Shown here piece by piece: positions 3,563-54,018 of a stretch of DNA of 63,029 bases. The notes beneath the pieces are model-generated. The model saw nothing but the letters and a program-made list of their open reading frames with translations, made no database searches and was not told where the DNA came from. The translations under genes and the position numbers were made by a program. The stretch is from Patescibacteria group bacterium. Its GTDB lineage: Bacteria; Patescibacteriota; Patescibacteriia; 2-12-FULL-60-25. How positions within the stretch are numbered: position 1 is the stretch's first letter; each line of letters opens with the position of its first letter. The DNA is taken from positions 89,791 through 152,819 of the forward strand of contig JAQTXZ010000002.1 in the NCBI GenBank assembly GCA_028688515.1. The letters are read 5' to 3'.

Positions 3563-3981
3563 GGCGGACCAGGCGGACCAGGCGGACTATAATGAAGAAA
3601 CAACGATATGCATATTTCAAGATTTGAGGACATGATTGCATGGCAACGCTCACGAGAATTTGTTAAAAAAACATATATCTCATTACATAGTTGTTGTGAT
3701 TATGGTTATAAGGATCAGATTCAACGTGCAGCCATATCCATCATGAATAACATAGCCGGAGGCTATGATCGGAAAGATAAAAAAGAGTATCTATATTTTC
3801 TCAAAGTTGCTAAAGCTTCGTGTTCAGAATGCCGATCAATGTTGTACGTAGCGGAAGATATTGGATATTTATCTGAACTAACATTTAAAATTAATTCAAT
3901 CAATAAAAGATAATTACAAATGATGATATTAAGTTTTCTACTGCAAAAAGTCCGCTTTGGTCCGCTTTGTCCGCCTGGTCC
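3563..3981. repeat. Inverted-repeat pair flanking a four-helix-bundle gene (9-nt unit)
   Basis: The left arm (3563-3587) is three copies of a ggcggacca-like unit. The right arm (3950-3981) contains gtccgcctggtcc and degenerate copies, the reverse complement of the left arm. Between them lies only the small gene at 3608-3913. The left arm ends directly against a TATAAT box (3588-3593) that probably drives the gene. The arrangement matches the cassettes at 7525-7924 and 47841-48309 although the arm sequences are unrelated. Confidence 0.75.
3608..3913 (+). CDS. Four-helix-bundle protein (S23 / 23S rRNA intervening-sequence family)
   Basis: 101 aa. The sequence has the family hallmarks: an N-terminal FEDMIAWQRSREF helix, then DQIQRAAISIMNNIAGGYDR, then KEYLYFLKVAKASCSECRS. 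Family members form small four-helix bundles; they are encoded in 23S rRNA intervening sequences of some bacteria, and relatives (Avd) assist diversity-generating retroelements. No reverse transcriptase is present here. The C-terminus (LTFKINSINKR) is shorter than usual, so the copy may be truncated. A TATAAT at 3588-3593 lies 14 nt before the ATG and no Shine-Dalgarno is seen. The gene sits alone between inverted-repeat arms, which suggests it travels as a unit. Its molecular function is unknown. Confidence 0.85.
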   Translation: MHISRFEDMIAWQRSREFVKKTYISLHSCCDYGYKDQIQRAAISIMNNIAGGYDRKDKKEYLYFLKVAKASCSECRSMLYVAEDIGYLSELTFKINSINKR

Positions 3982-34144: not shown

Positions 34145-34170
34145 ACCGAGTTTTGCTCGGTTCTTTTTTA
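34145..34170 (+). terminator. Terminator after hsp20
   Basis: accgag-ttttg-ctcggt followed by tcttttttt. Confidence 0.85.
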
Positions 34171-34200
34171 TGTACTGGCGTGATATTATATTTGGGCCAT

Positions 34201-34950
34201 ATGAAGGAGGAATCCAATGGTTTGGGGTTGGCGGTAAAAGCTCACTGGAAGCAATTGAAATCAAAGCAAAAAGCTTTTTTTGCCGTATTTATTTTTTGTG
34301 CCACTGTTGCGTTGGCATTTTCGTATTATAGCGTCCGTCAGGGGGTTACTGCACCTTGGCAAGTTTCCATTGCAGATATTCAAAAGCAAAAAGATCTGCT
34401 CAAAGATCCGGCGCAAGTACAAGAAGAGACCGCAAAAAGAATCGACACGGATGGCGACGGCCTTTCTGATTACGACGAGGAGAATGTTTATCACACCTCC
34501 CCGTATCTTTGGAGCACTGCGGGCGACAATGTGCCGGATAATGTAAAAATTGCATTGGGAGAAAATCCTTTATGCAAACATGGCGAGGAGTGCGACGCGG
34601 CTGCTGCCATGAAATTTGATTTGCCGACAACAACCTATCCGGGCGCGGATTTATTAACCAATAATGTGCAGAACGATCTGGGAAATATCATAATGGGCGA
34701 TAGCCAAGTTGGCCAAAACATTCGTCAAACAGCCAGTGATGCGGGCATAGATATGAGTTTAGCCAGTGTAATACCGCGCGATCCCGCAATGTTGCGCACG
34801 GCTTTGTTGCAGACCGGCCAAGTAACGCAAGCTGATTTAGATGCAATCTCGGATGCGCAGCTGCTCCAATATTTTGATGACGCTCAGGCGGAATTGATAA
34901 AACAGAATCCAAATTTAGCCGCCACCTCAACCGGTGCGGCACAAAAATAA
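34201..34950 (+). CDS. Membrane protein with a thrombospondin-type-3 calcium repeat
   Basis: 249 aa from ATG 34201 (MKEESNGLGLAVKAHWKQLK). TATTAT (34184-34189) lies 11 nt upstream, and an upstream in-frame ATG at 34153 would fall in the terminator. One membrane helix (AFFAVFIFCATVALAFSYY) is followed by an outer part. This carries a single TSP3/EF-hand-like calcium loop, DTDGDGLSDYDEENVYHTSP, and an Ala/Gln-rich helical end. The gene ends 3 bp before the giant secreted protein, implying co-transcription. It may anchor or assist export of that protein; this is inferred from position only. Confidence 0.8.
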   Translation: MKEESNGLGLAVKAHWKQLKSKQKAFFAVFIFCATVALAFSYYSVRQGVTAPWQVSIADIQKQKDLLKDPAQVQEETAKRIDTDGDGLSDYDEENVYHTSPYLWSTAGDNVPDNVKIALGENPLCKHGEECDAAAAMKFDLPTTTYPGADLLTNNVQNDLGNIIMGDSQVGQNIRQTASDAGIDMSLASVIPRDPAMLRTALLQTGQVTQADLDAISDAQLLQYFDDAQAELIKQNPNLAATSTGAAQK

Positions 34951-34953
34951 AGT

Positions 34954-37900
34954 ATGCAGTTTAAAGGAAACAAGTTGGTTAAAAAAATATTGGTTGGACT
35001 GACCTTTCTTTCCTTAATCGGATTGTCTTTGGTTCCCGCGGGTGCGACCTTTGCTCAGACTGTAATGATCCAAGATCCGGGAGCGACGCCGCCGTTTGAT
35101 GCGAATGTTCAGTCTTGCGCTTTGATTTTAAATCAAGCGGCCATAGTGGGTACCTTGGTACCAAACATGCCTCAGAAAACTTATCAAGAGATTTATTATG
35201 AATACGAAGAATGCATGGCAACCAAGGGCCAGAAGCAAGCGGATTGGTTTTATCGTCGCGCACAATATTTGAACAATCAGTGGAGCATGCGCATCATGAC
35301 CTCTCTTTACGGAGGTTTGATAGATTCGATGAGCATGATCTCGCAGCGCATTGCTTACGAAGCTGCCAGTGATTTATTGACCGGCAATCCGGGTAATGAG
35401 CCTCGTTTTTGGAACAGTGATTTCGGTACCTGGCTAGATAACGCGGGGAACGATGCAAGCAGCAAATTCATCGATCGTCTTGATGTTGTTGTCGGTGATT
35501 GGACGGAAAGTACAACGGCTACCGTTGATCCGAAAACCGGTCAGATTATCCCTGGCGTAAGGTTTAGTTTTTGTTCTCCTCCGGATCCTTACACATTAAA
35601 AATGTCTTTAGGCATAGGTGAAGTGGCGCGAATCGGACCGGGAGCTTGTAATCTTAAAAAAGTGGCGGATAATTTTAAAGCAATTGGAGAGTTGCTTTCT
35701 TCGGGGGAGGCGCTGCAGGTGCATAGACCGAGCGTTACTTACGGAGCAAGCGATCTTTCGGTGGGCGTAGAAACAAACTCGGCTTATTTTAATTACATGC
35801 TCAACGAGCGTGCGGGTTTGGCTTTGAATCGACAAGAGGATCAGGGGCTGAGGCCGGTAATGGATGTTGTCAGTGGGAAAATCAAGATACCGACTATATT
35901 GGCCGCAAACAGCTATCAGCAGTTGGATCCTGTTCGCATGGGTTTGGCCTCTGAGCAGGAACAACGCAGCGCTATCTTGAGTGCCTACTGGACTGCCGGT
36001 TTGGAAAACATTCCGATTTTGGCACTCACGACTTTTTCCAATACTTTGATTGTTGGCCTTTTGCATAAATGGCTGGATCCTAACAACTCCTTGTCTGCGG
36101 ACGGGTTGGCTACTCCGGATCAAATCAATATAACTTTTCAAGCGTTGCAGAATGCGGATGCGACAGGCGATGCGCAGGATCTGTATGAAAGAAAGTCATT
36201 TGCGAAAGCTTTGGGAGATTTTTTGGTTCCGAATTTTTCCACCAACGAAGATCAGGACATCGTTTTAGAATTGACAACTTGCAATACTCCGCGCGGAAGA
36301 TTTAGCTGCGCCATGGATCAGGCTTTGGGAGTAGCGATCAGCGTGGGAACCAATGAAGGCGCTTTAACCGTTGGCCGCGCAGCTGGTGTTGGTGCCGAGG
36401 GCGCAACTTATAGCGTTGCTTCGCGCGCGTTGCATTCGGATTGGGAATTGATTCCGGAGAGTGATATTAAGAACAATACGGATCCGACTTGCGCGCAGCG
36501 AGCGTATTGCGCGGGTAATCTTAAAAAGATGCGTCTGGCGCGCATTATCCCAATCGGTTGGGAGATGGCGGCAAATTCGCCTTATAACATCAAGCATGGC
36601 GGCAAGTATATTACGCTTGGAGAGGTTATCCGCGGTTTTTACGATTGCAATGACCAAGGCCAGATCGATAATGATCATCCTTGGTGCCACTTGGTAGATC
36701 CGGATTGGATTTTGACTGCGCCTAGTTACCAGTGCCGCGCCAAAGGTTATGGTGATGCCGTGTTGCCCGAGGTTGGCACGCGTCTTCAGGAGTGCGGGGA
36801 TATGGTTAGTTGTTTAAAAACCGATCAAAACGGCCAATGCACCGGCGGCTATGGTTATTGTTTGGCTGAACGTCCGGTTTGGAAGTTTGATGCGCAGGAA
36901 TGTAAGGAGCAATTCGTCAGTTGTAGAACTTACAATTATTCCGGCGGACAAATTTCGTTGCTGCGCAATACGGAGGATAAGGGAAAATGCTCCGAAGAAA
37001 ATATTGGCTGCACATGGTACTCAACTTTAAGATATCCATTTCCTGCAACGGCGGATAAGTCTTTGGTAGACGGCTTGTGGGTCGGTACCGTAACTTCGGG
37101 TCCGCGCGTTTACATGGATGCTGGAGTTCAACCTTGTTCGTCCGAGGGTTGTACCAAAATGCTTAAAGTCGAACCTGGTTCGAGTGCTTTGAATTTGATA
37201 CAAAATGGATCTTTTGAAAATCTTTTGCAGCGAGACGATGGAAGCGTGTATGGCGTAACGGGTTGGACGGCCGGAGTTTTAGCAAATCCTCAAGGTAGTG
37301 ATATTGATAGCCAGTACATCAGTCAGGAAGCAAACAGCGGTTCCAACGCGTACAGTTTTGATGAGCAGGGAGATTCCGCATCAATCGGCCAGCGCGTAAA
37401 GGCTGAAAGCGGACGAAACTATGTTTTGAGTTATGACTTTAAACAACAAGGCTCCGGCAGTGATTCTTATTTGCAGGTTGGATTCTACGATTCAAAAAAT
37501 CAAAAAATAAATGATTTGGTAACTTCCTACGGCGACTGTCAGTACTCCAATACTAACGCCGGTTTTAGTCTGATGGCAGGGGATCACGCCGAATCTTTAT
37601 CGTGGGTAAGAAGAACTTGCCAATTTGTAACGCCATTGGGTACTGAATCAATAAGTTTGATTTTTAAGAATTACGCTGCTCAGCTTTTGTTGGACGCTGT
37701 ACAGTTGGAGGAGGGTGAGACTGTTACGCCATTTATCGACGGCATTGCCAGCGGTCTTAAAGAAAGCTATCTCAAGATCGCGCCAGACGAATATAAATGC
37801 ACCGGTGACGATTCGGTTGATCACCCGGGCTGTCAGCGGTTTGCCCGTGTTTGCCGTCAGATAGATGTCGGCTGCCAAGGGTACCAGGATTTACAGGATT

Positions 37901-40900
37901 TTTCCGCACCGGAAGTTCCGGCCATATTGTCGTCAAAAGATTTATGCCCTGCAATCTGCGCGGGCTATGGCGAGTATCGCAAGTTGGCTTCGGCTTTTGA
38001 CTTGGTTAAAGATCCGGCACAACCGGAGTTTGACGATCCGCAAGACGAAACAACGGCGTATTTTATTCCGAATTTGGCGGACAAATGTTCGTTTGAGAAT
38101 GTCGGCTGCGATCCGTTCACCAGTATGGAATCGTCAACGAGTACCGGCGAAAGCGTGTCATATTATAAAGATGTCCGTTTGTGTCAAAAGCCGAACGAAA
38201 AATCCGCCACATACTATACTTGGGAAGGATCAGAAGTATCCGGTTATCAACTTAGAACCTGGTCGCTTGTTGCCGATACGGATGATTTCACCAAGGTTGC
38301 ATCAAGCGCGCCAAAACTTGTTTTGCGCGGAGGCACTCTCGGCTACATAAAAGATCCAGCGACTTGCAGTGACGTGAGCTGGAAGTTTGGAAACGATCCG
38401 GACTGCCGCCAATTTTTTGACGTTCAGGGTAATGTTTACTATCGTTTTTATTCACAAACCATCTCGTCCGATGCGGCTTGTACTACGTATCGCAAAGATG
38501 AGGTGACGCAGGACGACTGTACAAAGACCGGAGGCGATGAGTTTGTGGCTGCGAGCAACAGTTGTATTTATCATGCTTTGCCTTCCGAGAGTCTGATATG
38601 CTCGGCAGATGCAAGCGGCTGCCGTGCTTACATGGGTCCGACAGGACGCAATTCCGTTAACATGTTCCGCGACAATTTTGCCACAGGCACGCAGGTTATT
38701 TTTGACACGCAGCAGGGCGGTAACGTTACTTTGCAGTATTCCAACGAATCCGTTTTGGTCGGCGATAAATCGCTTAAGATGCAGGCACCGGCTGGTTCGC
38801 AAATCAAAGCGACTCTAAAATTGGCATTGCCAAATACGAATTCGTTGATGCGTGTATCGTTCTGGGCAAAAGCCAACGTGCCCAAGTCGTCATCCGACAG
38901 TCCGTCGCAGATTTTGGTTGACGGCGTGGAAGTCGGTACTTTCTACCCGGATGTAAACTGGGGACGCTTCGAAGTCGGTCCGTTTAACGTCAAAGACAAT
39001 CCGACTTTGATAGATATTGTTGTGCCGAGTAAAGTCGGTAATCCTTCCGACAATATCGTTTATCTCGATACATTCAGCGTTGATCAACTAAATGACGTGC
39101 AATTTGTGCGTAAAAATCGCTGGTCCATTCCTTTGGCCTGCGATTCAACTCCGGAGGGCGCACCGGAGCCGCGTTATATGGTTGGCTGCCGAGAGTATAA
39201 AGATAGGAATGATAATCAAGTTTTCGCCAGCAATTTCAGCAGGCTTTGCCGCGACACGGCTATCGGTTGCAGCGCATTCATCGATACCAACGACAAGCCG
39301 ACTCCATATTCCGAGACCAAGACTATAAAAGGCACATCCTTCCCGCAAGACTTTAGTTCCCCGTCTTATCCAAAACACGGCGACGCTAAATCATACGAGG
39401 AACAGTTTTTGGGCGATTGGTCAGTAACCAGCCAAGCTTACAGATACTATTACGCCATAGACGATGCCCGCGGGCGTTGCGATTCTTCCGAAGCTTCATG
39501 TCGCGCGTACGGCAAACCTATTTTTGAGCAAAATCGCGTGCAACTGACGTCCACGGATTTCACAGTTGATCCGAAAGACGACAGTATCTATCAAAATCAA
39601 CAAAAGATTTACGGCTTTACGACAGTCCTCTTAAAAGATGGCTGGGACAATCTCTTGGATGACAATAAAGAGCCTGTCTTGGCTTGCCGCAAAGACGAGT
39701 TGTTCTGCGATAAGTTTACAAGCGGCAATGTTACGGAATATTTCCGCAATCCGGGAAACCAGACCTGCGTTTGGGTGCAAGCAAAACATCTTTCCAAGAA
39801 TTTGGATGCAAATATTCCGGCTGACGGCGATTATTCCGGATGGTTCCGCGAAGGTACGGATGTTCCTTGCTATCCGCCATATCTATCGTCCGGCAGTACT
39901 TATCTTGTCCAATATACCGGTGAGAATGATTATTCTGGTTGGAACGCAAAATGTCCGGTAGACCAAAGTGAGTGTACGGAATTGGTCGATCATAACGATA
40001 CATCGGACACTAGCCATCCGAGCGGTAAACCGTATTATGTAATTAACGGACCAAAACTCGACAAATCATCTTGCGGCGGAACGGCGGATCCTATGGGTGG
40101 GTGCGTACTTTTTCAGGACAAAGGCGTCGGCACACTGGAGGCGAACGCAGCGGCAACTTACGCCAAAGTAACCGCGGAGCGCGGCGCAGCTCAAAGTCCG
40201 ATAGATTGTGCGGGCGATCCGACGAATGAATATTGCGTTCAGACGAAGGCCGGTACATGTCAATCTTTGGATAAGAATTTTGACAGTGGATCATGCAATG
40301 ATGATAGTGAGTGCGGAGTGTCGGGGATCTGCCAAAAGAATGACTCCAATATTGTTTTGAGAGTCAAGATGGACAGGGAGTGTGCCAGGTGGATCGGTTG
40401 CCGCAGCGGAGAGACTGTTTATGATCCGGTACAGCAAAAGTTTGTAACGCAGTGTTCACAAACGGATTTGTGCCAGAAAAATGAAAACGGCGTACAAGAT
40501 TCTTACTGCTCTCAGTTTGTTGACAGGTCTAAGGAGGATTATTTGCAGGTTGGAGAATTCATCGATGCACTGTCTTACAGCGCAAGGCAGACTGGTTTTG
40601 GAAGAATGGATTATTCCGGCTATGCGATTCCAAATGACTACTTGCCGCTGGATATAGTTACTCGTCCTGTCGGGTATGATCTGCTTGGCAACACCGGCGA
40701 GGGATTGAGTTATAAAAACGACTATCGTTTAGTGGCCGGTTTACCGATCGACGGTACGAATGTTGTTAAAGCCACGGATCCGTCATTTAATTTGTTGCAA
40801 CTTTGCAAAGACAACAGAACCGGGCGGTATGGTTATGTATATGGATCCGATCAGAAGTGTTATTTGCCGATTGGCATGCCAACCGCACTGCAAATAGTTT

Positions 40901-43900
40901 CCGGACAGCAGGCGAATGATACGACTCAAGATATTCAACGTTTGTATTATGAATTTGTAAACACGAATACAAAGATTAACAATGCCTCGGTTCAGAGCGC
41001 AATGCCTCAGCCGGAGTGCAGAATTTATCCGGAGGAGACATCGCCGCTTCCAAACTCCTATGTTTCAGAGTGGAATACGTCCGTAGATCCTCCATCGCCG
41101 ACAAAAATGGCTGACGGCTATCAATTTGCAAAAACGTGCGTGTACGGCGAAGATTGTTCTTGTTCTTATCGTAAGGTCAGGTATACGGGCGCGGAAAAAT
41201 ATTATTCGTTGGACGGCGCGCCACCGGCCGTCGGCGTTTGTATTGGGGGCGAGCGCGACGGACAATCGTGTGTTCCGGATGGATATGTCGCGGTAAATAA
41301 TCAAAATCAGATTTTGGTGAATCCTAGTTCACAGAATCCGTCGTTTCAAAATACTTGCACCGGAGGAGCGTGCCAGGCAATTCAAGACGTCGTGTATGTC
41401 AACGGAAAATATGGATACTGTCTTGAATGGGATAAGACGCGCATTAACGATTCAATACAGTCGACCGCTCCGTGCCTTACTTGGGATCCAAAGTTGGTGA
41501 TTGGCGGGATTAGAGATGCTACTCACTATTCTCCGACGGCGGGCTATTTGCCTCCGCAGGGTTCCGGAAAATACTACTGCGTATCCGGTGCCGGACAACA
41601 GCAGATCATTACCCCGTCGGTTAAAAAAGCGGGTTCGGTGAATGGCGGATCCGCTTCAAAAGATTTCTTGATGCCGGGGCTGTTGACGGAGATGTCTTTT
41701 TCACGATCTGATGTTTGGTGGCCTGGAAATGACGACGATTATTCCAACCTGTCAATTGACGGCAAGAGCAACCGAATATACGGATACAGCAAAGAAGAGC
41801 TTGATCATCTAAAAGGCAGTGAGGAAACCGTGCTTACCGGCACCGACATGCGCAACATGCCATTCGCCTGCCGACGCACGAGTTTGTGCGAAGGTTTTAG
41901 TATGGTTGACGGTTCAGACCGCGCTCAAGGTGAGCTGGACGCAAATGATACCGAGGGCAGATGGATTATGACCGGCGACGGTATTGCAAGTTCGTATATG
42001 GAATATTTCATTCCGGTTAAAAATTCCAATACATTGAATTACGATCAATTTGATTATCGTTATGGTTTGTTTAAGTTTGGTTTACAGCCATATTCTGCGG
42101 GCGCCGCTTGTAAATGGAATCCGCGTTGGGCGGGTTTGGATTATCCCAAGGTAGAGGCTAAAAGCGATACTAATTTTTCCTGTCAAAGTTATTTGCAGGA
42201 CGTTGGTTCGACATCTAAACAAGTGTATGACACCTTAAAAAATGGCTTTAACGGTATATTGGATCGCAGTAACGAGCATTTGCTTTCCGACGAAAAAGGC
42301 GATCCGTTCAAAATAAAATGCATGGTTTCGGCCGGAGATCATTGTTATTTCAAATATTGGGAAACCGGTTATCAGAATAATGGACAGGATGAGTTCTCTT
42401 GGATACAGAACGACAAGGCCGCAGCAGGAGATTTTGACTTTAACTTGCGTTATCATAGTTACTACGCAAAAGAGTGCCGCGCCGGACAGCCGTTCTTCGG
42501 TATACGAGCCATGTTCCAAGATGTAAATCCAATGGAGAATGAACTGTCCTCAGAACAAGCGCGCTCTGCAAAATTGGCGGGACCTTGGCAGTTTGTGGGG
42601 TTCTGGTTCACGACCTGTTTGCCAACGCAAACGACTAATGATCCGGGTTGGATGTATCTTAGATTGGACACGGTGAAGGTGGATGTCTGCAGAGAGGTTG
42701 GGCAAGTAGTGTCCTCTCAAACACGAGAGAATGCAGTCTTTGCGGATCGCGTCTGGAACTCAGGGGTATTCGTACTGCCTTCTTTGGGCCTGCGCTATTC
42801 CTCCCGTAATTCGCCGTTCGGTTCTTCGATTGCAACGCGCGAGATCGGACATGATCCGATGATCGTAGGCGCATCTGTACCTGGTGCTTCTGATGCGAAT
42901 TTCAGTCCAACCTTCGTTGATTCCGGGCTGACCGTTTCTCCGTCTTTCTCGCGACAGAATGCCTGGGTGCCTTTGACCAATTTGTTCGCACGCGTTTACA
43001 AGGTGTGGCGCTGGGAGGAAACGGCAGTTATGTCGTGGGATAAGATGTGTGTTAATGGTTCAAAACAGGGCAAGGTTTGCTATGCGGATAATAAATACGA
43101 TGCCATGGTTGCTTGCTCGGATTATGCGACATGCGATACAGAGATTGATGCCGAGATATTGAATCAAAATTGGCGCTGCAACTCGCTTTCGGGCGTTAAC
43201 AGGGGTTTGCATTGCGGAGACAAAGAATATCCATCACGTAATCAAGATTCGATTTGTCACAATGCGCCGATGGCTTATGAGTTTGATGGCAGCTCCCAAC
43301 AAGCTGTTCTCACCCCTCTGTACGGCAGTTGTATAGAGAGTAACACGGCCACGTTGGAGGTTCCCATCTCGATGTTTGGCACATGCTACTATGGCAGCAA
43401 TGATTTTTATTGCGATGTTCCTTCAGTGAGTGTGGAGACTTCGCCGGAAAAAGAAGGCGATCTATCCGCGATAGAAGGCGGCGACAAGATCAAGTTTCAA
43501 GTTAAGAAGTGTACTGCAGGCAGTCATCAAGGTGAGTATTATCTGTCTCCATCCGGTTATCCTTCGTTTGCAAATCAAATAAAAAAAACTGTTTTGACAA
43601 ATTTTCAGATTTCAATTACCCGTGTTCCCCTGTGGGTTATTGCTGTTAGGGCGATGAAAGATATCGAGAGTAAGAATGTTAAAATAAGCGGTAACAATAT
43701 TGATTGCAGCGGAGGCACTTGGACTCAGGATATCCAATCAATTTTGACGGATCCAACTTTGTTGAAAAAGTATGCCCCCGAAGCAACTGATTGGCCGACC
43801 GATAATAACTGGATTAGTTCGGGCTATGGGATAAACACCATTCAGGCCATGGGGCAGTCGGACAATCAGGGTCATGGTTTGGCTAATTTGTATCAAAATG

Positions 43901-46900
43901 ATTTCGTGTATAAGAGTTTTGAGTTGGGTTATTGGGACAAAGACCGCATGAATTTGATTCGTGCTAACTTTTGCGGTTATGGTACGGTAAATCGAGACGA
44001 GCGTTGCGGCGAGGCGAAAGATCTTTCCGAGGAGTGTCCTTTGCGTATAGATTTACCGACATCGCAGTGGTATAAGGACAACAACAACGGTTGGCAGACT
44101 TATGCTTCGTCTGATATGCCGGGTCTATCCGATGGGTGGTGGGAGCGGTTTGATCAAAGCAAACACGTCCTACCGTATGCTCAGTGCATAATCGGCGATC
44201 AGAATGATCAATATAAGGATCTTTATCCCAATACAGGGTACTGCAAAGGTTTCAATCCATTGTCGCGTTGTAAATTGGCAGGAGATTGTTCGTTTGACCA
44301 GTTCGAGTTTTGGGGTGCTTATGACGACGGAACGGGAAAGGGTAAGAACTATCAAGATGCAATTACTCCGATTATCAGAACCGCGGGTCAGGAACGAGGG
44401 GGATTGGGTTTCTCTCCACAAGTCGGTGAACCGATTCAGTTGCCAATGCCCTACACGGGAAACATGAATGTCACGAAAAGACACGAGCTGTCAGGTTTGG
44501 ATAGCTCTCTGAACTTGTCTCAGCCGGCTTCGTTGGTTAGTTTTTCATCAAGCTATTTAGGGGACTATGACCGGGACTTGGAGATTACTCAGGCTTGGCC
44601 AATGAATTATTGTCTTGATTCGCACTTAGAGCTTGAGGCCATTCAGAATGGATACTTTGGCGCCAATATGAGACGGACTTGTTATGACCACATTGATACG
44701 AAATTGCCTGCGAATAATACTGTGGCAAGAGCTTGTCCTATCGCTACTTGGGAAGCGGTGTGTTCCGGAATTTCCGATGCTTTTCCGGGGTTGATGTCCT
44801 CATTCCGTTTGTGGGTCGCGTGCGAGGCGCAGTGCAGGGCTGCTGCAGTACAGCGTCCGAGCGGCTATGCGCAGAACTTGAATAAAGTTGTCGATAAAAC
44901 GTATAACGGAAGATATCGCATGGCGGCTGTGGCTCCATTTGCAATAAATCCGTTGAATAGGTTTGTAAATTCAATCGCAGTTGCATCTAAATTTGTAAGC
45001 GGTGTGATAGACCCTGTTGGTGCTCTAAAACAGTGGAGATGGGATGGCTGGGTTATGGGGAAGCTCTATACCTACAGCTTGTATGATTTTACTGACTTGG
45101 CAATACATGAACCGAGCCCTATCAGTACAGTAATCAATCAGTTCATAACAATAAACAGCGATCGTAACAACGCGCCGGACGCTTATCAGGTCAATTATCT
45201 GCCTTTGTTTTCCGGGGGTAAAGGCTTAAAGACATGGTTGGATAGTAAATTGGGATTTGGGTTAAACGAGATAAACAGTACGTTACCGTGGGATCCGCAA
45301 AGATTGTATTTTACGAATGTGTTTCCTTTGGTTAAGACTGATTATGGCGCGCCGGAAATGTTGCAAAACTTTAAGATGGGTCCGGATGTCGGACCGGCTG
45401 GATGGAATTTGGCCGATTGGACTCAGAGGGGAAAGATTTGGTCCGGTTTTGGCATGTCTCAAAAATTGATTCGGGCATTAGACGAGTACATCGGCTTTAA
45501 GAACAGCATGAAAGATGGTAACGGCAATCCCGGTTTTCCTGCGTGGGGCAATGCAGCCGCACAATCGGCTTATATCAAATTCTGGCATCAGTTCGAAGTT
45601 GATATGCATGATGAGTTTGTTAATAAAACAGGTTGGGGGTCGTTCATGACGCCATCCGCAGGTTTATTGCAGTTATATCCTGGAGCGATACCGGCGGCAG
45701 TGCCTCGAGAAGATGCAGATCAAGGCCCGATTACCGACAGGTATAATGTATTTATTCCAGGTCACTGCGAGCCTCCAACAGGTGGCACTGATGTTGATAC
45801 TGTTGTCGGTAAACCGGCGAATGTTATCTTGACGGAAGATTACGGTTCAAATATGACGTGGAACGATGAATGGGCTTATTATTTTACAAATCCGTGGGAG
45901 TCATGGAAGGAGACTTATGATAATGGCAAGCCGATTTGGCGCGATATAAATAAGGATGGTTACCCTGATGTGGACAGTGATGGCAAATATATTGACGGTT
46001 CAGATAAATATCCTGAGGCGTTTGTCATGAGCAATAATCATCTCCAGTGGACGAGTACTGAAAAGAGTCGGCATGAATTTATCGGCGGGAATGTAATCCC
46101 CGAAGCAGGAGTCGATTCCCGAAGCATTTCGATAGAGGGTCCGGTTGGCAATGCAAATTCATTAAGGACCGCGTGCCGCTGTATTGGAGGGTCTTTAAAC
46201 GGCACTGTTCAAGAAAGTCAGGATGAATGCAACTTGGGCTTGCCTGATGACCAAAATCCGGACAAGCTGCCCGATGATCAGCGCAATTTGTCGGGTGATG
46301 ACTGGTGTCGCAAAGTCGCTGATTATGTTTCCGGAGCATGGGTGCCAACCGCTGAATGTCAATCCGACAAGGGCTCGCGCGATGCGGCCAACCCGGACCA
46401 GGATGATAACAAGTGTACTCACAATCCTGGTTATGTTCCGCGCGGAGACGTTTGTCGGGATGGAAGAGAGCAATGCTTGGTTACGTATAAATTAAATGAT
46501 CCGATTTCTACGGATGACATTCATGTCACGGATAAGACGGCGGCGCCGTCGGCAACTGATGTGACGGCAGGCTTAGACACTTTGTATTACATCTCTCAAG
46601 GAAGAACGGAGCGTGATGCTAAACAGTATGTGTCTTGGTATCAGCCCGGGCCGCCTCGCGTTGCGATTCCTGATTTATCGAAAACAAATCAATCAGCAGG
46701 AACTCAAGCGGCGGCTAACATTGATGAATTTAGCGTAGACGGTCGTGCCGCGGGATTGGTGTATTACAGCGGCGGTCAAGGCAGGGCGACTGTTCGATTC
46801 TATGCTTGGGCGGAGCATAATCAGGGCCCGATAAAGAATGTGGTGATAGATTGGGGAGATGGCACGATTCAGAGCATTGACGATGTGCAGCTGAAGAACC

Positions 46901-47709
46901 AAAAACCATTGTGTAATACAACGCGTGAATGCGAGTTTATCCCCGGTTTGGCTTGTAATGGCGATGGCGATTGTCCGCCCGGTAGCGGAGCCTGCCGTGA
47001 ACGTGGCACATGCGTACAACAGGCGTATAAAGATTGTTTCACTGATGCAGACTGTGGAGGTGGCGATACTTGTGCTCCGAGAGTGATGTTCGGAAATAGT
47101 ATGGAGGCGTGCAGACAGGGTTATCTTGAATTCAGTCATGTGTATAAATGCGATGAGAATGCGTCGCCGTCTATCAAGTGCGGCGGGACGGGTGCGCCTG
47201 CATCAAGTTGTGAAAATGAACCCGGCTTGGCATGTGGAAATTGCAAAACCGGAGAGGCGTGCGCCGATAATTTAGCTCCTCGCAACGGATGTTACAACGT
47301 TGATCTAAACCGGTGCCGCTATACGCCGCGCGTTATGGTCAAAGACAACTGGGGTTGGTGTACGGGGGATTGCTCTCAGCCCGACGAGGAGAAACCGGGG
47401 CAGACGAACTATACATATCCTATCAGGCATCCAAATGGTGGTTGTTATGACGGTGTAAATACTAAGTTCAACGTTGATGTATTAAATAACCCCAATACAG
47501 CACAATCCTTACCCAATGAGTGCGCGATTGAGGGAGTGAATACGCTTTATCGTCCGTGGATTATTTATCGCGGTGCAGTCGAGATAGCCCCGCAAGCCGG
47601 CAGCGTTTATAATCCGACAACCGGTAAAGTGCAATTTCAAGCATCTGCCAGCGGACCAGGCTCATCATTCGTTAATTTGTCTAAAACCAGCGGAATAATC
47701 GTTCAATAG
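34954..47709 (+). CDS. Giant secreted Cys-rich surface protein (4251 aa)
   Basis: 4251 aa, occupying a fifth of the window. The N-terminal signal peptide ends ...PAGATFAQ (~residue 35). Early residues (~50-500) are helical with a few hydrophobic segments. From ~residue 620 on there are recurrent Cys pairs in a loose repeat: ENIGCTWY (~682), RVCRQIDVGCQGY (~962), ENVGCDPF (~1048), ASGCRAYMG (~1218), LCRDTAIGCSAF (~1430). Jelly-roll-type modules begin LIQNGSFENL (~750) and near 38660-39080. A calcium loop DINKDGYPDVDSDGKYIDG is near 3670. Near the C-terminus are C-x-DxDC modules (CFTDADCGGGDTC) and a PKD-like strand VVIDWGDGTI (~3970). There is no LPXTG and no C-terminal membrane helix. It is probably a surface adhesin or sheath of an episymbiont; that role is inference. 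Confidence 0.9.
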   Translation: MQFKGNKLVKKILVGLTFLSLIGLSLVPAGATFAQTVMIQDPGATPPFDANVQSCALILNQAAIVGTLVPNMPQKTYQEIYYEYEECMATKGQKQADWFYRRAQYLNNQWSMRIMTSLYGGLIDSMSMISQRIAYEAASDLLTGNPGNEPRFWNSDFGTWLDNAGNDASSKFIDRLDVVVGDWTESTTATVDPKTGQIIPGVRFSFCSPPDPYTLKMSLGIGEVARIGPGACNLKKVADNFKAIGELLSSGEALQVHRPSVTYGASDLSVGVETNSAYFNYMLNERAGLALNRQEDQGLRPVMDVVSGKIKIPTILAANSYQQLDPVRMGLASEQEQRSAILSAYWTAGLENIPILALTTFSNTLIVGLLHKWLDPNNSLSADGLATPDQINITFQALQNADATGDAQDLYERKSFAKALGDFLVPNFSTNEDQDIVLELTTCNTPRGRFSCAMDQALGVAISVGTNEGALTVGRAAGVGAEGATYSVASRALHSDWELIPESDIKNNTDPTCAQRAYCAGNLKKMRLARIIPIGWEMAANSPYNIKHGGKYITLGEVIRGFYDCNDQGQIDNDHPWCHLVDPDWILTAPSYQCRAKGYGDAVLPEVGTRLQECGDMVSCLKTDQNGQCTGGYGYCLAERPVWKFDAQECKEQFVSCRTYNYSGGQISLLRNTEDKGKCSEENIGCTWYSTLRYPFPATADKSLVDGLWVGTVTSGPRVYMDAGVQPCSSEGCTKMLKVEPGSSALNLIQNGSFENLLQRDDGSVYGVTGWTAGVLANPQGSDIDSQYISQEANSGSNAYSFDEQGDSASIGQRVKAESGRNYVLSYDFKQQGSGSDSYLQVGFYDSKNQKINDLVTSYGDCQYSNTNAGFSLMAGDHAESLSWVRRTCQFVTPLGTESISLIFKNYAAQLLLDAVQLEEGETVTPFIDGIASGLKESYLKIAPDEYKCTGDDSVDHPGCQRFARVCRQIDVGCQGYQDLQDFSAPEVPAILSSKDLCPAICAGYGEYRKLASAFDLVKDPAQPEFDDPQDETTAYFIPNLADKCSFENVGCDPFTSMESSTSTGESVSYYKDVRLCQKPNEKSATYYTWEGSEVSGYQLRTWSLVADTDDFTKVASSAPKLVLRGGTLGYIKDPATCSDVSWKFGNDPDCRQFFDVQGNVYYRFYSQTISSDAACTTYRKDEVTQDDCTKTGGDEFVAASNSCIYHALPSESLICSADASGCRAYMGPTGRNSVNMFRDNFATGTQVIFDTQQGGNVTLQYSNESVLVGDKSLKMQAPAGSQIKATLKLALPNTNSLMRVSFWAKANVPKSSSDSPSQILVDGVEVGTFYPDVNWGRFEVGPFNVKDNPTLIDIVVPSKVGNPSDNIVYLDTFSVDQLNDVQFVRKNRWSIPLACDSTPEGAPEPRYMVGCREYKDRNDNQVFASNFSRLCRDTAIGCSAFIDTNDKPTPYSETKTIKGTSFPQDFSSPSYPKHGDAKSYEEQFLGDWSVTSQAYRYYYAIDDARGRCDSSEASCRAYGKPIFEQNRVQLTSTDFTVDPKDDSIYQNQQKIYGFTTVLLKDGWDNLLDDNKEPVLACRKDELFCDKFTSGNVTEYFRNPGNQTCVWVQAKHLSKNLDANIPADGDYSGWFREGTDVPCYPPYLSSGSTYLVQYTGENDYSGWNAKCPVDQSECTELVDHNDTSDTSHPSGKPYYVINGPKLDKSSCGGTADPMGGCVLFQDKGVGTLEANAAATYAKVTAERGAAQSPIDCAGDPTNEYCVQTKAGTCQSLDKNFDSGSCNDDSECGVSGICQKNDSNIVLRVKMDRECARWIGCRSGETVYDPVQQKFVTQCSQTDLCQKNENGVQDSYCSQFVDRSKEDYLQVGEFIDALSYSARQTGFGRMDYSGYAIPNDYLPLDIVTRPVGYDLLGNTGEGLSYKNDYRLVAGLPIDGTNVVKATDPSFNLLQLCKDNRTGRYGYVYGSDQKCYLPIGMPTALQIVSGQQANDTTQDIQRLYYEFVNTNTKINNASVQSAMPQPECRIYPEETSPLPNSYVSEWNTSVDPPSPTKMADGYQFAKTCVYGEDCSCSYRKVRYTGAEKYYSLDGAPPAVGVCIGGERDGQSCVPDGYVAVNNQNQILVNPSSQNPSFQNTCTGGACQAIQDVVYVNGKYGYCLEWDKTRINDSIQSTAPCLTWDPKLVIGGIRDATHYSPTAGYLPPQGSGKYYCVSGAGQQQIITPSVKKAGSVNGGSASKDFLMPGLLTEMSFSRSDVWWPGNDDDYSNLSIDGKSNRIYGYSKEELDHLKGSEETVLTGTDMRNMPFACRRTSLCEGFSMVDGSDRAQGELDANDTEGRWIMTGDGIASSYMEYFIPVKNSNTLNYDQFDYRYGLFKFGLQPYSAGAACKWNPRWAGLDYPKVEAKSDTNFSCQSYLQDVGSTSKQVYDTLKNGFNGILDRSNEHLLSDEKGDPFKIKCMVSAGDHCYFKYWETGYQNNGQDEFSWIQNDKAAAGDFDFNLRYHSYYAKECRAGQPFFGIRAMFQDVNPMENELSSEQARSAKLAGPWQFVGFWFTTCLPTQTTNDPGWMYLRLDTVKVDVCREVGQVVSSQTRENAVFADRVWNSGVFVLPSLGLRYSSRNSPFGSSIATREIGHDPMIVGASVPGASDANFSPTFVDSGLTVSPSFSRQNAWVPLTNLFARVYKVWRWEETAVMSWDKMCVNGSKQGKVCYADNKYDAMVACSDYATCDTEIDAEILNQNWRCNSLSGVNRGLHCGDKEYPSRNQDSICHNAPMAYEFDGSSQQAVLTPLYGSCIESNTATLEVPISMFGTCYYGSNDFYCDVPSVSVETSPEKEGDLSAIEGGDKIKFQVKKCTAGSHQGEYYLSPSGYPSFANQIKKTVLTNFQISITRVPLWVIAVRAMKDIESKNVKISGNNIDCSGGTWTQDIQSILTDPTLLKKYAPEATDWPTDNNWISSGYGINTIQAMGQSDNQGHGLANLYQNDFVYKSFELGYWDKDRMNLIRANFCGYGTVNRDERCGEAKDLSEECPLRIDLPTSQWYKDNNNGWQTYASSDMPGLSDGWWERFDQSKHVLPYAQCIIGDQNDQYKDLYPNTGYCKGFNPLSRCKLAGDCSFDQFEFWGAYDDGTGKGKNYQDAITPIIRTAGQERGGLGFSPQVGEPIQLPMPYTGNMNVTKRHELSGLDSSLNLSQPASLVSFSSSYLGDYDRDLEITQAWPMNYCLDSHLELEAIQNGYFGANMRRTCYDHIDTKLPANNTVARACPIATWEAVCSGISDAFPGLMSSFRLWVACEAQCRAAAVQRPSGYAQNLNKVVDKTYNGRYRMAAVAPFAINPLNRFVNSIAVASKFVSGVIDPVGALKQWRWDGWVMGKLYTYSLYDFTDLAIHEPSPISTVINQFITINSDRNNAPDAYQVNYLPLFSGGKGLKTWLDSKLGFGLNEINSTLPWDPQRLYFTNVFPLVKTDYGAPEMLQNFKMGPDVGPAGWNLADWTQRGKIWSGFGMSQKLIRALDEYIGFKNSMKDGNGNPGFPAWGNAAAQSAYIKFWHQFEVDMHDEFVNKTGWGSFMTPSAGLLQLYPGAIPAAVPREDADQGPITDRYNVFIPGHCEPPTGGTDVDTVVGKPANVILTEDYGSNMTWNDEWAYYFTNPWESWKETYDNGKPIWRDINKDGYPDVDSDGKYIDGSDKYPEAFVMSNNHLQWTSTEKSRHEFIGGNVIPEAGVDSRSISIEGPVGNANSLRTACRCIGGSLNGTVQESQDECNLGLPDDQNPDKLPDDQRNLSGDDWCRKVADYVSGAWVPTAECQSDKGSRDAANPDQDDNKCTHNPGYVPRGDVCRDGREQCLVTYKLNDPISTDDIHVTDKTAAPSATDVTAGLDTLYYISQGRTERDAKQYVSWYQPGPPRVAIPDLSKTNQSAGTQAAANIDEFSVDGRAAGLVYYSGGQGRATVRFYAWAEHNQGPIKNVVIDWGDGTIQSIDDVQLKNQKPLCNTTRECEFIPGLACNGDGDCPPGSGACRERGTCVQQAYKDCFTDADCGGGDTCAPRVMFGNSMEACRQGYLEFSHVYKCDENASPSIKCGGTGAPASSCENEPGLACGNCKTGEACADNLAPRNGCYNVDLNRCRYTPRVMVKDNWGWCTGDCSQPDEEKPGQTNYTYPIRHPNGGCYDGVNTKFNVDVLNNPNTAQSLPNECAIEGVNTLYRPWIIYRGAVEIAPQAGSVYNPTTGKVQFQASASGPGSSFVNLSKTSGIIVQ

Positions 47710-47840
47710 TTTGGCGTCGGTTCCTGTGAGACTCAAGTTTTTTGGTCACTTAAGTTTTCTTGACGCATAGCTGGTTTTAGAGTATATTGTCTGCGGTTGA
47801 CTCGTTCTGGATGAACGAGTCAATTTAATACAAGGAAACC

Positions 47841-48309
47841 AATTACGAATTAAGAATTACGAATTACGATTAAGAATTGATAATTTATGAAGGATAATGT
47901 GCTTAGAGAAAAGAGTTTTGCTTTTGCACTGACCATTATTCAAACTTTCCGTTCAGGCAGAATCGAGCCAAATGATTATATCTTGGTTAAGCAATTAATT
48001 AGATCCGGAACGTCAATAGGCGCGAACATTGAGGAGGCGATTGGCGCCTGTTCAGAAAAGGAATTTTTAATGAAATTGACGATTGCTTACAAAGAGGCAA
48101 GAGAGTCGTTGTTTTGGTTGAGGTTGATGAAAGAGTCAACGATTCTTGGTGGAGAAAGATCATCAGAACTCATTGAGAGGTGTGAGGAACTCTGCAGGAT
48201 AATGTCGGCTATACAACGAACAATGAAGCAGAAACACGCAAAAAAATTATAGAAGATAAATAATCAAATACAATTATTCGTAATTAGTAATTCGTAATTC
48301 GTAATTATT
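47841..48309. repeat. Inverted-repeat pair (cgtaatt unit) flanking a four-helix-bundle gene
   Basis: The left arm 47841-47880 (aattacgaattaagaattac and on) and right arm 48273-48309 (cgtaattagtaattcgtaat and on) are complementary. They enclose only the gene at 47887-48252. GATAAT (47879-47884), just inside the left arm, could be the -10 box, 2 nt before the ATG. Confidence 0.8.
47887..48252 (+). CDS. Four-helix-bundle protein (S23 family), second copy
   Basis: 121 aa, full family length. The pattern NVLREKSFAFALTIIQTFRS, DYILVKQLIRSGTSIGANIE and EKEFLMKLTIAYKEARESLF with terminal helix ELCRIMSAIQRTMKQ is characteristic of the 23S rRNA intervening-sequence / four-helix-bundle family. It differs clearly from the copy at 3608-3913, so they are not recent duplicates. 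Like that copy it is enclosed by inverted repeat arms and interrupts an otherwise plain gap between two core genes. Its function is unknown. No 23S rRNA and no retroelement is nearby. Confidence 0.88.
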   Translation: MKDNVLREKSFAFALTIIQTFRSGRIEPNDYILVKQLIRSGTSIGANIEEAIGACSEKEFLMKLTIAYKEARESLFWLRLMKESTILGGERSSELIERCEELCRIMSAIQRTMKQKHAKKL

Positions 48310-48316
48310 CTAACCT

Positions 48317-49603
48317 ATGGCAAGTCAGATATCACAGGCTATCAAGGCGATCTGCGACGAAAAGTTGCTTAGCGAAGAGGCAGTTTTGGAAGCTGTCGCG
48401 GCATCGCTTGCGGCTGCTTACCGCAAAGATTTCGGTAATCGAAATCAAAATATAAAATGCGAGTTTGATCCCGAGCTTTACGACGGAAGCACGGCCGGCA
48501 TTCGTATTTTCGATGCCAAAGAAGTTGTCGCCGACATGGAGTTGCCGGATGACTACTTTGAAAAGTTTGAAGCGGCTCATGGCGGTAAAAAAGATAAGGA
48601 ACGCCAGCCTTTTGCGGCTGATACAAGATCGGATGCATCTTTTGATAAGAACAAAGAAGGCGGCGATGCGGAGGTCGACGATGAGTTTGTTTTTAATCCG
48701 AAAACCATGATCATGCTTTCGGATGCGCGAGATATCAAACCGGATGCGCAGATAAGCGAAGAGATCCGCGTAGAGTTGGCGATTCCTACGGCGTTTGGCC
48801 GCATGGCTGCGCAAACCGCAAAACAAGTTATCATGCAAAAGCTGCGCGAAGCGGAACGCGGTGTTATTTATCAAGACTTTAAAGAACGCGAAGGCGAGTT
48901 GATGAATGTAACTGTGCAGCGCCGCGAAGGCCGCGTCGTTTTGATCGATCTTGGCCGCGCAACCGGCGTGATCTTGCCGGAAGATCAAATCGAGACAGAG
49001 CGCTATTTTCCGGGAACGCGCATTAAGGCTATTTTGCGCGAAGTTTCACTGACCAACAAAGGACCGGAGATTCGTCTTTCACGCTCAAGCCCGGGTTTGG
49101 TCGCGTCGTTGTTTGCACAAGAGATTCCGGAAGTCGCCAACGGAGTTGTTGAGATAAAAGATATCGCACGCGAGGCCGGCAGCCGCACCAAAGTTGCGGT
49201 CACCACAAACGATGACATGATCGATCCGATCGGCTCATGCATCGGCCAGCGCGGTACGCGCATCCAGACCATTATCCGCGAGCTGGGAGGAGAAAAAGTT
49301 GACGTTGTCATGTGGAGCGATAATGAGGGCGAATACATTGCCGCATCTTTAAGCCCGGCAAAAATTCTGACCGTTGATTTGAATCAAGAAGAGCATTTGG
49401 CAACGGTGCATGTTGCGCCGGATCAGCTCTCTCTGGCTATCGGCAAAGGCGGACAAAATGTGCGCCTTGCAGCCAAGCTTACCAGCTGGAAGATCACGGT
49501 TGTTAACACAGAGCTCGGCAAAGTTGTAGCGGATTCTGAAGTCGGCGAACTTAAAACAGAAGAACCAACTCAAGAAGAATCAACTGAGGAAATTAAGAAT
49601 TAA
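48317..49603 (+). CDS. nusA: Transcription termination/antitermination factor NusA
   Basis: 428 aa. NusA binds RNA polymerase and RNA at pauses and terminators. The N-terminal domain (SQAIKAICDEKLLSEEAVLE) carries an insertion rich in Lys/Asp (~residues 90-120). The S1 domain follows (GELMNVTVQRREGRVVLIDLGRATGVI). KH1 and KH2 have DPIGSCIGQRGTRIQTIIREL and LAIGKGGQNVRLAAKLTSWK. The stop lies in a family-1 repeat arm. The start has no Shine-Dalgarno; TATTCT sits 5 nt upstream, just past the right arm of the preceding cassette. Confidence 0.95.
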   Translation: MASQISQAIKAICDEKLLSEEAVLEAVAASLAAAYRKDFGNRNQNIKCEFDPELYDGSTAGIRIFDAKEVVADMELPDDYFEKFEAAHGGKKDKERQPFAADTRSDASFDKNKEGGDAEVDDEFVFNPKTMIMLSDARDIKPDAQISEEIRVELAIPTAFGRMAAQTAKQVIMQKLREAERGVIYQDFKEREGELMNVTVQRREGRVVLIDLGRATGVILPEDQIETERYFPGTRIKAILREVSLTNKGPEIRLSRSSPGLVASLFAQEIPEVANGVVEIKDIAREAGSRTKVAVTTNDDMIDPIGSCIGQRGTRIQTIIRELGGEKVDVVMWSDNEGEYIAASLSPAKILTVDLNQEEHLATVHVAPDQLSLAIGKGGQNVRLAAKLTSWKITVVNTELGKVVADSEVGELKTEEPTQEESTEEIKN

Positions 49604-49678
49604 TAATTAAGAATGTTGGAATCGCTGCGTGAAATGTATTATATACGTACCGAAATTCATAATTCTTAATTCATAATT
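49591..49678. repeat. Family-1 inverted repeat between nusA and yidC
   Basis: The left arm aattaagaattaataattaa (49591-49614) includes the nusA stop TAA (49601-49603). The right arm is 49653-49678 (aaattcataattcttaattc and on). The loop of ~38 nt is unrelated to the other copies. Confidence 0.85.
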
Positions 49679-49686
49679 GAAAAGTT

Positions 49687-50448
49687 ATGTTGTGGCTCTA
49701 TAACGAAATTTTGTTCCGTCCCATTCTCAACTTGTTGATTTGGCTTTACGTCACAATTCCGGGCAGCGATTTGGGCATTGCGATTATTGTTTTGACTTTG
49801 ATCATTAAATTGATTCTTTATCCTTTTACGGTCGCGCAAATCAAACAACAAAAGGCGTTGCAAACAATGCAGCCTAAAATTGCGGAAATTCGCAAACGTT
49901 TAAAGGATGATAAAGAGGCTCAGTCCAAAGAGTTGATGGAACTGTACCGCAAGGATAAAGTAAATCCGGTATCGTCCTGTTTGCCTTTGGTGATTCAGCT
50001 ACCGGTATTCATCGCTTTATATCAAGCTTTGCGGGTTGGTCTGGAATCGCAATCACTTTCCATGTTGTATTCGTTCGTTCCTAATCCCGGAACGGTGCAT
50101 GCGGTTTTATTCGGCGTGATTGATTTGGTGAATCCGAATTATGTTTTAGCCGCATTGGCCGCCGGCGTGCAATTTTGGCAGACTTGGATGATGATGAAGC
50201 AGCCGGGTGCGATTAAGGCGTCGCCTTCGGAGGTTGCCGGTCAAAAAGAAGCCAAGGACGAAGATATGGCTGCAATGGTTAATAAGCAGATGATGTATGT
50301 GATGCCCATCATGACTTTGATTATCGGCATCAAGCTCCCGGGTGGTTTGGCTTTGTACTGGTTTGTGATGAGCTTGCTCACCGTTGCGCAACAATATTGG
50401 CTGACGCGAAAACCCGTTCCACCAACGGTGGAAGCACAGATGAATTAA
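49687..50448 (+). CDS. yidC: Membrane protein insertase YidC/Oxa1
   Basis: 253 aa, the short Gram-positive-like form without a large periplasmic domain. YidC inserts and folds membrane proteins with or without SecYEG. The membrane core reads GIAIIVLTLIIKLILYPFTV, then KQQKALQTMQPKIAEIRKRL, then NPVSSCLPLVIQLPVFIALY and the final helix GLALYWFVMSLLTVAQQYW. A charged cytoplasmic loop precedes the last two helices. Genes rnpA, rpmH and jag, often adjacent, are not here. The stop TAA (50446-50448) is inside the next repeat arm. Confidence 0.95.
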   Translation: MLWLYNEILFRPILNLLIWLYVTIPGSDLGIAIIVLTLIIKLILYPFTVAQIKQQKALQTMQPKIAEIRKRLKDDKEAQSKELMELYRKDKVNPVSSCLPLVIQLPVFIALYQALRVGLESQSLSMLYSFVPNPGTVHAVLFGVIDLVNPNYVLAALAAGVQFWQTWMMMKQPGAIKASPSEVAGQKEAKDEDMAAMVNKQMMYVMPIMTLIIGIKLPGGLALYWFVMSLLTVAQQYWLTRKPVPPTVEAQMN

Positions 50449-50537
50449 GAATTAATAATTAAGAATGCAGGTGTTTGAGAATATATTTTTTGAAAAGAAT
50501 TCCCAAATTTATAATTCATAATTCTTAATTCATAATT
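50443..50537. repeat. Family-1 inverted repeat after yidC
   Basis: The left arm 50443-50466 (aattaagaattaataattaa and on) contains the yidC stop. The right arm is 50505-50537. It ends 10 nt before the PRC-barrel gene. Confidence 0.85.
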
Positions 50538-53634: not shown

Positions 53635-53931
53635 ATGAAGTTAAGACCTTTAAACGATCGTCTGATCGTCAAAGCGCTTCCCAAAGAGGAAGTTACAAAG
53701 TCAGGAATCATTTTGCCGGACACTGTTGACAAAGAACGTCCGGAACAAGGCGAGGTGATAGCCATCGGTCCCGGAAAATTATTGGAAGACGGCAAACGCT
53801 CCGCAATGGATGTAAAAGTCGGCGATAAAGTTATTTTTAAAAAGTACGCACCCGACGAAGTAAAAATCGAGAACGAAGAATACCTCGTCATCTCGGAATA
53901 CGATGTGCTCGCAGTGTTGGAAAATAATTAA
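53635..53931 (+). CDS. groES: Co-chaperonin GroES
   Basis: 98 aa, usual size. GroES caps the GroEL chamber. It starts MKLRPLNDRLIVKALPKEEV, has the mobile loop KSGIILPDTVDKERPEQG that contacts GroEL, then GEVIAIGPGKL and ends EYLVISEYDVLAVLEN. It is controlled by the CIRCE operator upstream. Its TAA stop (53929-53931) lies in a family-1 repeat arm that separates it from groEL by 87 bp. Confidence 0.97.
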   Translation: MKLRPLNDRLIVKALPKEEVTKSGIILPDTVDKERPEQGEVIAIGPGKLLEDGKRSAMDVKVGDKVIFKKYAPDEVKIENEEYLVISEYDVLAVLENN

Positions 53932-54007
53932 GAATTAAGAATTATAAATTAAGAATGAAGGTAATTTTATTCCAGAATTCATAATTCTTAATTCAAAATT
54001 CATAATT
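53926..54007. repeat. Family-1 inverted repeat between groES and groEL
   Basis: The left arm aattaagaattaagaattat (with the groES stop) and right arm 53976-54007 (gaattcataattcttaattc and on) are complementary. It could fold in the groESL mRNA and set the groES/groEL ratio. Confidence 0.85.
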
Positions 54008-54018
54008 GATATCGAACT

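Follow-up and report, generated by a model that had tools for sequence, protein, structure and literature searches.

The cassette upstream of nusA in our window, a 63,029-nucleotide stretch of the genome of a Patescibacteria group bacterium, is likely to be an intergenic IVS-like element, in which one S23p/IVP gene and two inverted heptamer arrays are inherited and inserted as one unit. Across the genomes compared here, arms and gene form one clade-matched unit that is inserted at gene junctions, in sense to the host genes. The unit is ~430 to 470 bp long and almost always runs in the direction of transcription of the upstream host gene. Since many bacteria have such units between their genes, it seems to be a mobile element that is widespread and has hardly been described. 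In the window, the cassette and its surroundings are composed as follows.

34954..47709, plus strand: 4251-aa ORF (from the ORF list), the upstream host gene, co-directional with the cassette gene
47799..47822, plus strand: nusA-leader hairpin GACTCGTTCTGGATGAACGAGTC, aligned 5′ of nusA in the majority of 30 family genomes
47841..47885, plus strand: 5′ arm, tandem AATTACG/AATTAAG heptamers (TRF period 7, 5.6 copies)
47887..48252, plus strand: IVP/S23p gene, 121 aa (PF05635 E 2.6e-21), of the subclade with the TSIGANxEEA motif
48276..48306, minus strand: 3′ arm, CGTAATT heptamers, inverse of the 5′ arm (TRF period 7, ATTCGTA, 4.4 copies)
48317..49603, plus strand: nusA, the downstream host gene, with 67-86% identical matches in 38/41 family genomes

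The original prediction had described a divergent paralogue between a giant-protein ORF and nusA, bounded by inverted short-unit arms at 47841-48309, and its coordinates proved right: the giant ORF ends at 47709, the PF05635 gene occupies 47887-48252, and nusA starts at 48317. The two arms (47841-47885 vs 48274-48306) pair in inverted orientation over 33 nt with 91% complementarity, 400 nt apart, and their inverted-arm score of 32.0 compares with 10.9 on average and 21.2 at most in flank shuffles (n = 2000). The hairpin that had been proposed is supported by the minimum-free-energy RNA fold of the cassette, which pairs the arms as one long stem (z = -3.8 vs shuffles). With 76.3 bits against a curated PF05635 cut-off of 33.8, the ORF between them belongs to the 23S_rRNA_IVP (S23p) family; its location is not a 23S rRNA helix, however, but the space between the 4251-aa ORF and nusA, where the cassette separates the leader hairpin (47799-47822) from the nusA start. 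A leader hairpin of the form GACTCGTTCTGGATGAACGGGTC is seen near the nusA start in most family genomes (L117-L145) as well as in the window, and this conserved structure is probably a regulatory RNA element. Further upstream, at 34153-34950, the ORF preceding the 4251-aa ORF matches a TSP3_bac-type repeat, with a score under the curated cut-off.

The window contains another member of the family, which sits directly 5′ of recA.

3563..3587, plus strand: 5′ arm of the first cassette, built from 9-nt GGCGGACCA units
3608..3913, plus strand: the other IVP/S23p gene of the window, a divergent paralogue (PF05635 E 2.1e-26)
3950..3981, minus strand: 3′ arm of the first cassette, TGGTCCGCC/GTCCGCTTTG

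The arms of the window's two copies are indeed unrelated, as the prediction had it: AATTACG heptamers in one and 9-nt GGCGGACCA units in the other. Throughout the window genome (1.29 Mb, 4 contigs), PF05635 is found at six places, one of them with an in-frame stop, and all six have inverted arms, each with its own unit.

Such arms turned out to be the rule for the family: family and arms co-occur strongly across genomes, also when size- and flank-matched controls are used, whereas a lack of co-occurrence would have refuted the original prediction. For the window lineage, we compared 105 distinct PF05635 genes and their flanks with 826 other genes from the same loci (mechanical gene calls), an inverted-arm score of ≥16 serving as the threshold. 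Arms were present at 85% of the PF05635 genes vs 6% of the controls, or at 89/105 vs 17/224 when the controls were matched in size and flanked by noncoding DNA (Fisher p = 1.4e-45). In direct orientation, a score of 16 was reached by only 17% of the same flanks. PF05635 gene flanks further show a sharp period-7 peak (7, 14, 21). An alignment of the TSIGANxEEA subclade, to which the window protein belongs, then served as the query against 84,980 species genomes. We kept the best 80 loci (83 genes), a set chosen by similarity in which one subclade is over-represented. It covers more than 10 phyla, with loci from Bacteroidota, Ignavibacteria/Chlorobiota, Chloroflexi, Cyanobacteria, Planctomycetota, Verrucomicrobiota/Lentisphaerae, Desulfobulbales, Nitrospirota, Gemmatimonadota, Omnitrophota, Elusimicrobia, Sumerlaeota, KSB1, and Patescibacteria. 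Here, inverted arms flank 90% of the 83 genes vs 14% of 609 controls, and 75/83 vs 21/110 in the matched comparison (Fisher p = 1e-24). Flank shuffles and matched controls rule out the arms as chance AT-rich repeats, and the control genes of both sets rule them out as an ordinary feature of any gene in these loci.

Arm sequence follows the protein at the level of the subclade. Left and right arms taken from different copies match in only 3.8% of pairings in the window lineage, so each copy there has a largely private unit. In the best-80-loci set, cross-paired arms from different copies match in 59%, because most copies use AATTACG or a close AATTNNN form; AATTACG in sense upstream together with CGTAATT downstream marks 48% of the genes and 0/609 controls. 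The AATTACG/AATTNNN heptamer extends within the window protein's subclade from Bacteroidota to Cyanobacteria and Chloroflexi, and since the proteins of this set are mostly only 40-60% identical, it has been kept over a long divergence. Among non-syntenic pairs of the window lineage, arms are similar in 4/5 at >70% protein identity, in 15% at 55-70%, and in ~0.5% at low identity, a rise that appears in the same orientation only and holds without common neighbors. Members of the same broad clade in this lineage have varied heptamers, so recognition of the arms, if any, would operate at the subclade level. The earlier claim that the common factor is the protein family rather than the arm sequence fails below the family level, where a heptamer remains with its protein subclade from phylum to phylum and moves along with it. 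Many heptamers across the loci consist of a 4-nt palindrome (AATT, CATG, GTAC, CCGG, or CTAG) plus three variable bases. There is also a second, heptamer-free IVP group (L067:15277, L098:6910, L078:6134, L004, L083, L086, and L091), whose members in different genomes end in the same conserved inverted repeat of ~20 nt, of the type GC..A...TCAAGCGCGCAA.

A clean empty site that reveals the unit of insertion is found in Flavobacterium, where a cassette of 463-479 bp lies between the mraY stop and the murD start in F. hercynium and four congeners, while mraY and murD are contiguous in about 110 other genomes of the genus; gene and arms thus arrive together. Unlinked copies, too, are homologous from arm to arm and no further, both within one genome (L031/L100) and between genomes (L067/L092 and L007/L022). 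As the same-genome pair L031/L100 is only 72% identical, a very recent jump was not caught. No target-site duplication is visible at mraY-murD, although AT-rich arms could hide one of 1-3 nt.

One might suppose that the gene instead enters the loop of existing hairpins, be they heptamer or rRNA hairpins, such that the arms are the target and not part of the element. After all, rRNA IVSs take the place of hairpin tetraloops (PMC4990558), and the arms of copy L002 (AACTGAC/CAAGAG) are identical to many gene-less hairpins of the window genome. What makes this quite unlikely are the 29 empty mraY-murD junctions that we read among the contiguous ones, where a gap of 5-11 nt separates the genes and a hairpin is lacking, and several same-genus nusA leaders without a heptamer hairpin: G002, G003, G004, and G006 have a short spacer alone after the conserved leader hairpin. 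Moreover, arms track the subclade of the protein both from phylum to phylum and between sites that are not linked, and the IVP-free genomes sampled have no gene-less hairpins. We therefore disfavor insertion into existing hairpins as the main route on account of the hairpin-free empty mraY-murD and nusA sites. In G012, a different IVP cassette occupies the same position upstream of nusA.

Alternatively, the cassette could represent a non-mobile, operon-embedded accessory gene whose arms are regulatory or mRNA-stabilizing hairpins, its distribution being a matter of vertical inheritance and frequent loss. This would agree with orthologues at the same site within genera, with the ability of the arms to form a hairpin, with the sense orientation (69/73 cassettes in sense with the upstream gene vs 76% of controls; 77/89 vs 66% in the window lineage), and with purifying selection on the protein, which is strong between Flavobacterium orthologues (dN/dS 0.05-0.18) and argues that the IVP protein is in use. 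We nonetheless hold it to be unlikely, given unlinked same-genome copies with homology bounded by the arms, copy numbers of 12 in one Flavobacterium and 15 in G008, and the very patchy presence of cassettes among genomes. Arm covariation was dropped as evidence for an RNA fold: the Flavobacterium orthologues show no compensatory changes between the arms, the left arm drifting and the right arm staying constant.

Loss of inserted units can be followed at the trpD-trpC junction of Tenacibaculum, where full cassettes (L328 and L346) are found alongside an internally deleted one that kept both arms (L332), short remnants (L334, L331, and L335), and empty sites (L329, L330, and L333). Deletion of cassettes leaves gene-less or one-sided arrays. 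The window has gene-less hairpins of its own, and arms alone are therefore no marker of a cassette.

49591..49678, no strand assigned: gene-less AATTNNN hairpin, unit type as in the arms of the nusA cassette
50440..50537, no strand assigned: gene-less AATTNNN hairpin
53926..54011, no strand assigned: gene-less AATTNNN hairpin

Gene-less tandem-arm hairpins number 41 in 447 kb of the window genome; 200 kb from other IVP-rich genomes contained 17, and 200 kb from four relatives without a PF05635 match contained 0. In G008, 93% of their arms match IVP arms of the same genome, vs 38% for random sets of equal size. The corresponding values for the window genome are 64% vs 26%, with 11 hairpins matching the nusA cassette, a weaker test in that at least one of 40 random sets reached 69%; in G046, 0/4 gene-less hairpins match the IVP arms of that genome. 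The most fitting interpretation of the gene-less hairpins is that they are decay products or else non-autonomous relatives. Several hairpins of G000 (e.g., L055:528-588, L042:1454, L046:3336, and L038:1583) combine differing heptamer legs with a common apex, CAAGAG-(10-19 nt)-CTCTTG, and IVP copy L002 is located inside one such hairpin. Of a different kind are the clustered near-identical palindromes TGTTTCACGTGAAACA at L047:180-919 (G000:C3:120180-120919), which resemble ParB (parS) sites and likely indicate an origin region.

As for the protein, its AlphaFold2 model is a four-helix bundle (pLDDT 92.7). The closest solved folds are 2rld (BT_0352, S23 family), also matched by sequence (E 3.5e-20), and 2gsc (Xcc0516), a published homopentamer (PMC4990558). 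The Avd analogy that the prediction had drawn is supported at the fold level by a TM of 0.74 to Avd 4dwl; chains 8ub7/8ube of the DGR RNP match as well. Across 42 homologues, the invariant positions are mostly polar (K9, S10, Q36, T42, N47, E49, E50, K63, E70, R72, E73, and E101). The pentamer, which would be Avd-like, probably binds the hairpin formed by its own arms.

The common fold of S23p and Avd could also mean that S23p is an Avd-like accessory and that a DGR-type reverse transcriptase or a Y1 (REP-type) transposase moves the cassettes in trans. Y1 enzymes act on hairpins, and weak PF05635 hits adjoin reverse transcriptases in several relatives (G025:C66, G036:C9, G036:C5, G035:C74, G015:C37, G043:C17, and G049:C2), these being probably DGR Avd genes. 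Against this, PF00078 and PF01797 matches are absent from G008 (15 copies), G004 (7), G019, G020, and G032, some of which are drafts, and no Y1 transposase was found in these or in G005 and G014, which leaves the idea very unlikely. The window genome, whose nusA cassette is on contig C2, has a broken fragment on C4 as its sole RVT_1 match and one Y1 gene, on another contig than the cassette. Trans mobility by RVT_1 or Y1_Tnp was hence rejected for lack of a consistent presence in cassette-rich genomes, as was viral carriage, viral_contigs having given no confirmed relative.

Returning to the IVS-like unit, we envisage that the element would be read from host operons and that, in host mRNA, its arms would pair as a long stem with the gene in the loop, as in 23S rRNA IVSs; the fold might form in mRNA or as ssDNA. 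An S23p pentamer, possibly a ring like that of Avd, would bind the stem of its own clade, and the resulting ribonucleoprotein or ssDNA-protein complex would then be inserted or protected, while cutting and joining would fall to a host or trans-acting enzyme.

All parts of this unit have counterparts in the 23S rRNA IVSs with an S23p ORF known from Coxiella, Leptospira, Xanthomonas, and Brucella, which undergo RNase III cleavage in the stem (PMC4990558). In these, long terminal inverted repeats likewise enclose a sense PF05635 gene in their loop, at a similar size (428-444 nt). In Coxiella, a 28-bp terminal inverted repeat bounds the IVS and tandem GACAGAT heptamers precede its S23p ORF, just as the heptamers of the window cassette adjoin the ORF (PMC4990558). 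Window-type cassettes differ in that they lie between protein genes, in many copies per genome, with a heptamer type tied to the protein subclade and with gene-less relatives. Since the parts are the same, we regard intergenic cassettes and rRNA IVSs as one kind of element at different sites. A report that the Coxiella S23p is probably not expressed (PMC4990558) counts against our reading of the unit. As cited in PMC4990558, Ralph and McClelland suggested that the IVS is a mobile element whose ORF aids mobility, and this fits the present data.

Other systems share fewer features. With DGR Avd, the window protein has in common the four-helix bundle and a pentamer family, its own pentameric state being predicted from the family; in contrast to DGRs, no reverse transcriptase adjoins the window cassette. 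With REP/RAYT elements and MITEs, too, short hairpins between genes are related to the termini of an element that carries a gene, but the cassette arms are tandem heptamer arrays and the unit has no Y1 or other transposase. The TAACTGA repeats of Beggiatoaceae are intergenic tandem heptamers ahead of start codons, yet nearly all are direct, with no inverted pairing around a gene, and the text on them never mentions four-helix or S23 proteins (PMC4679880). Among open-licence papers, only those on rRNA IVSs and TAACTGA repeats were relevant as prior description; a study of rRNA inserts in CPR bacteria mentions neither S23p nor hairpins.

More tentatively, and with some doubt on our part, the cassettes may constitute a large unrecognized class of mobile elements, of which rRNA IVSs would be a special case that landed in rRNA. 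The sole protein of this class would be a non-enzymatic-looking pentameric four-helix bundle that recognizes subclade-specific tandem heptamers; the elements would need neither a transposase nor a reverse transcriptase linked to them in order to move, and would leave gene-less heptamer hairpins behind across genomes. We know of no function or mobility mechanism assigned to S23p/IVS elements in three decades, during which they have been studied as oddities of rRNA. In our data, they occupy ordinary intergenic regions of many phyla, are present in many copies, and have clade-matched heptamer arms, all of which makes cassettes a likely origin for many of the short heptamer hairpins in bacterial genomes.
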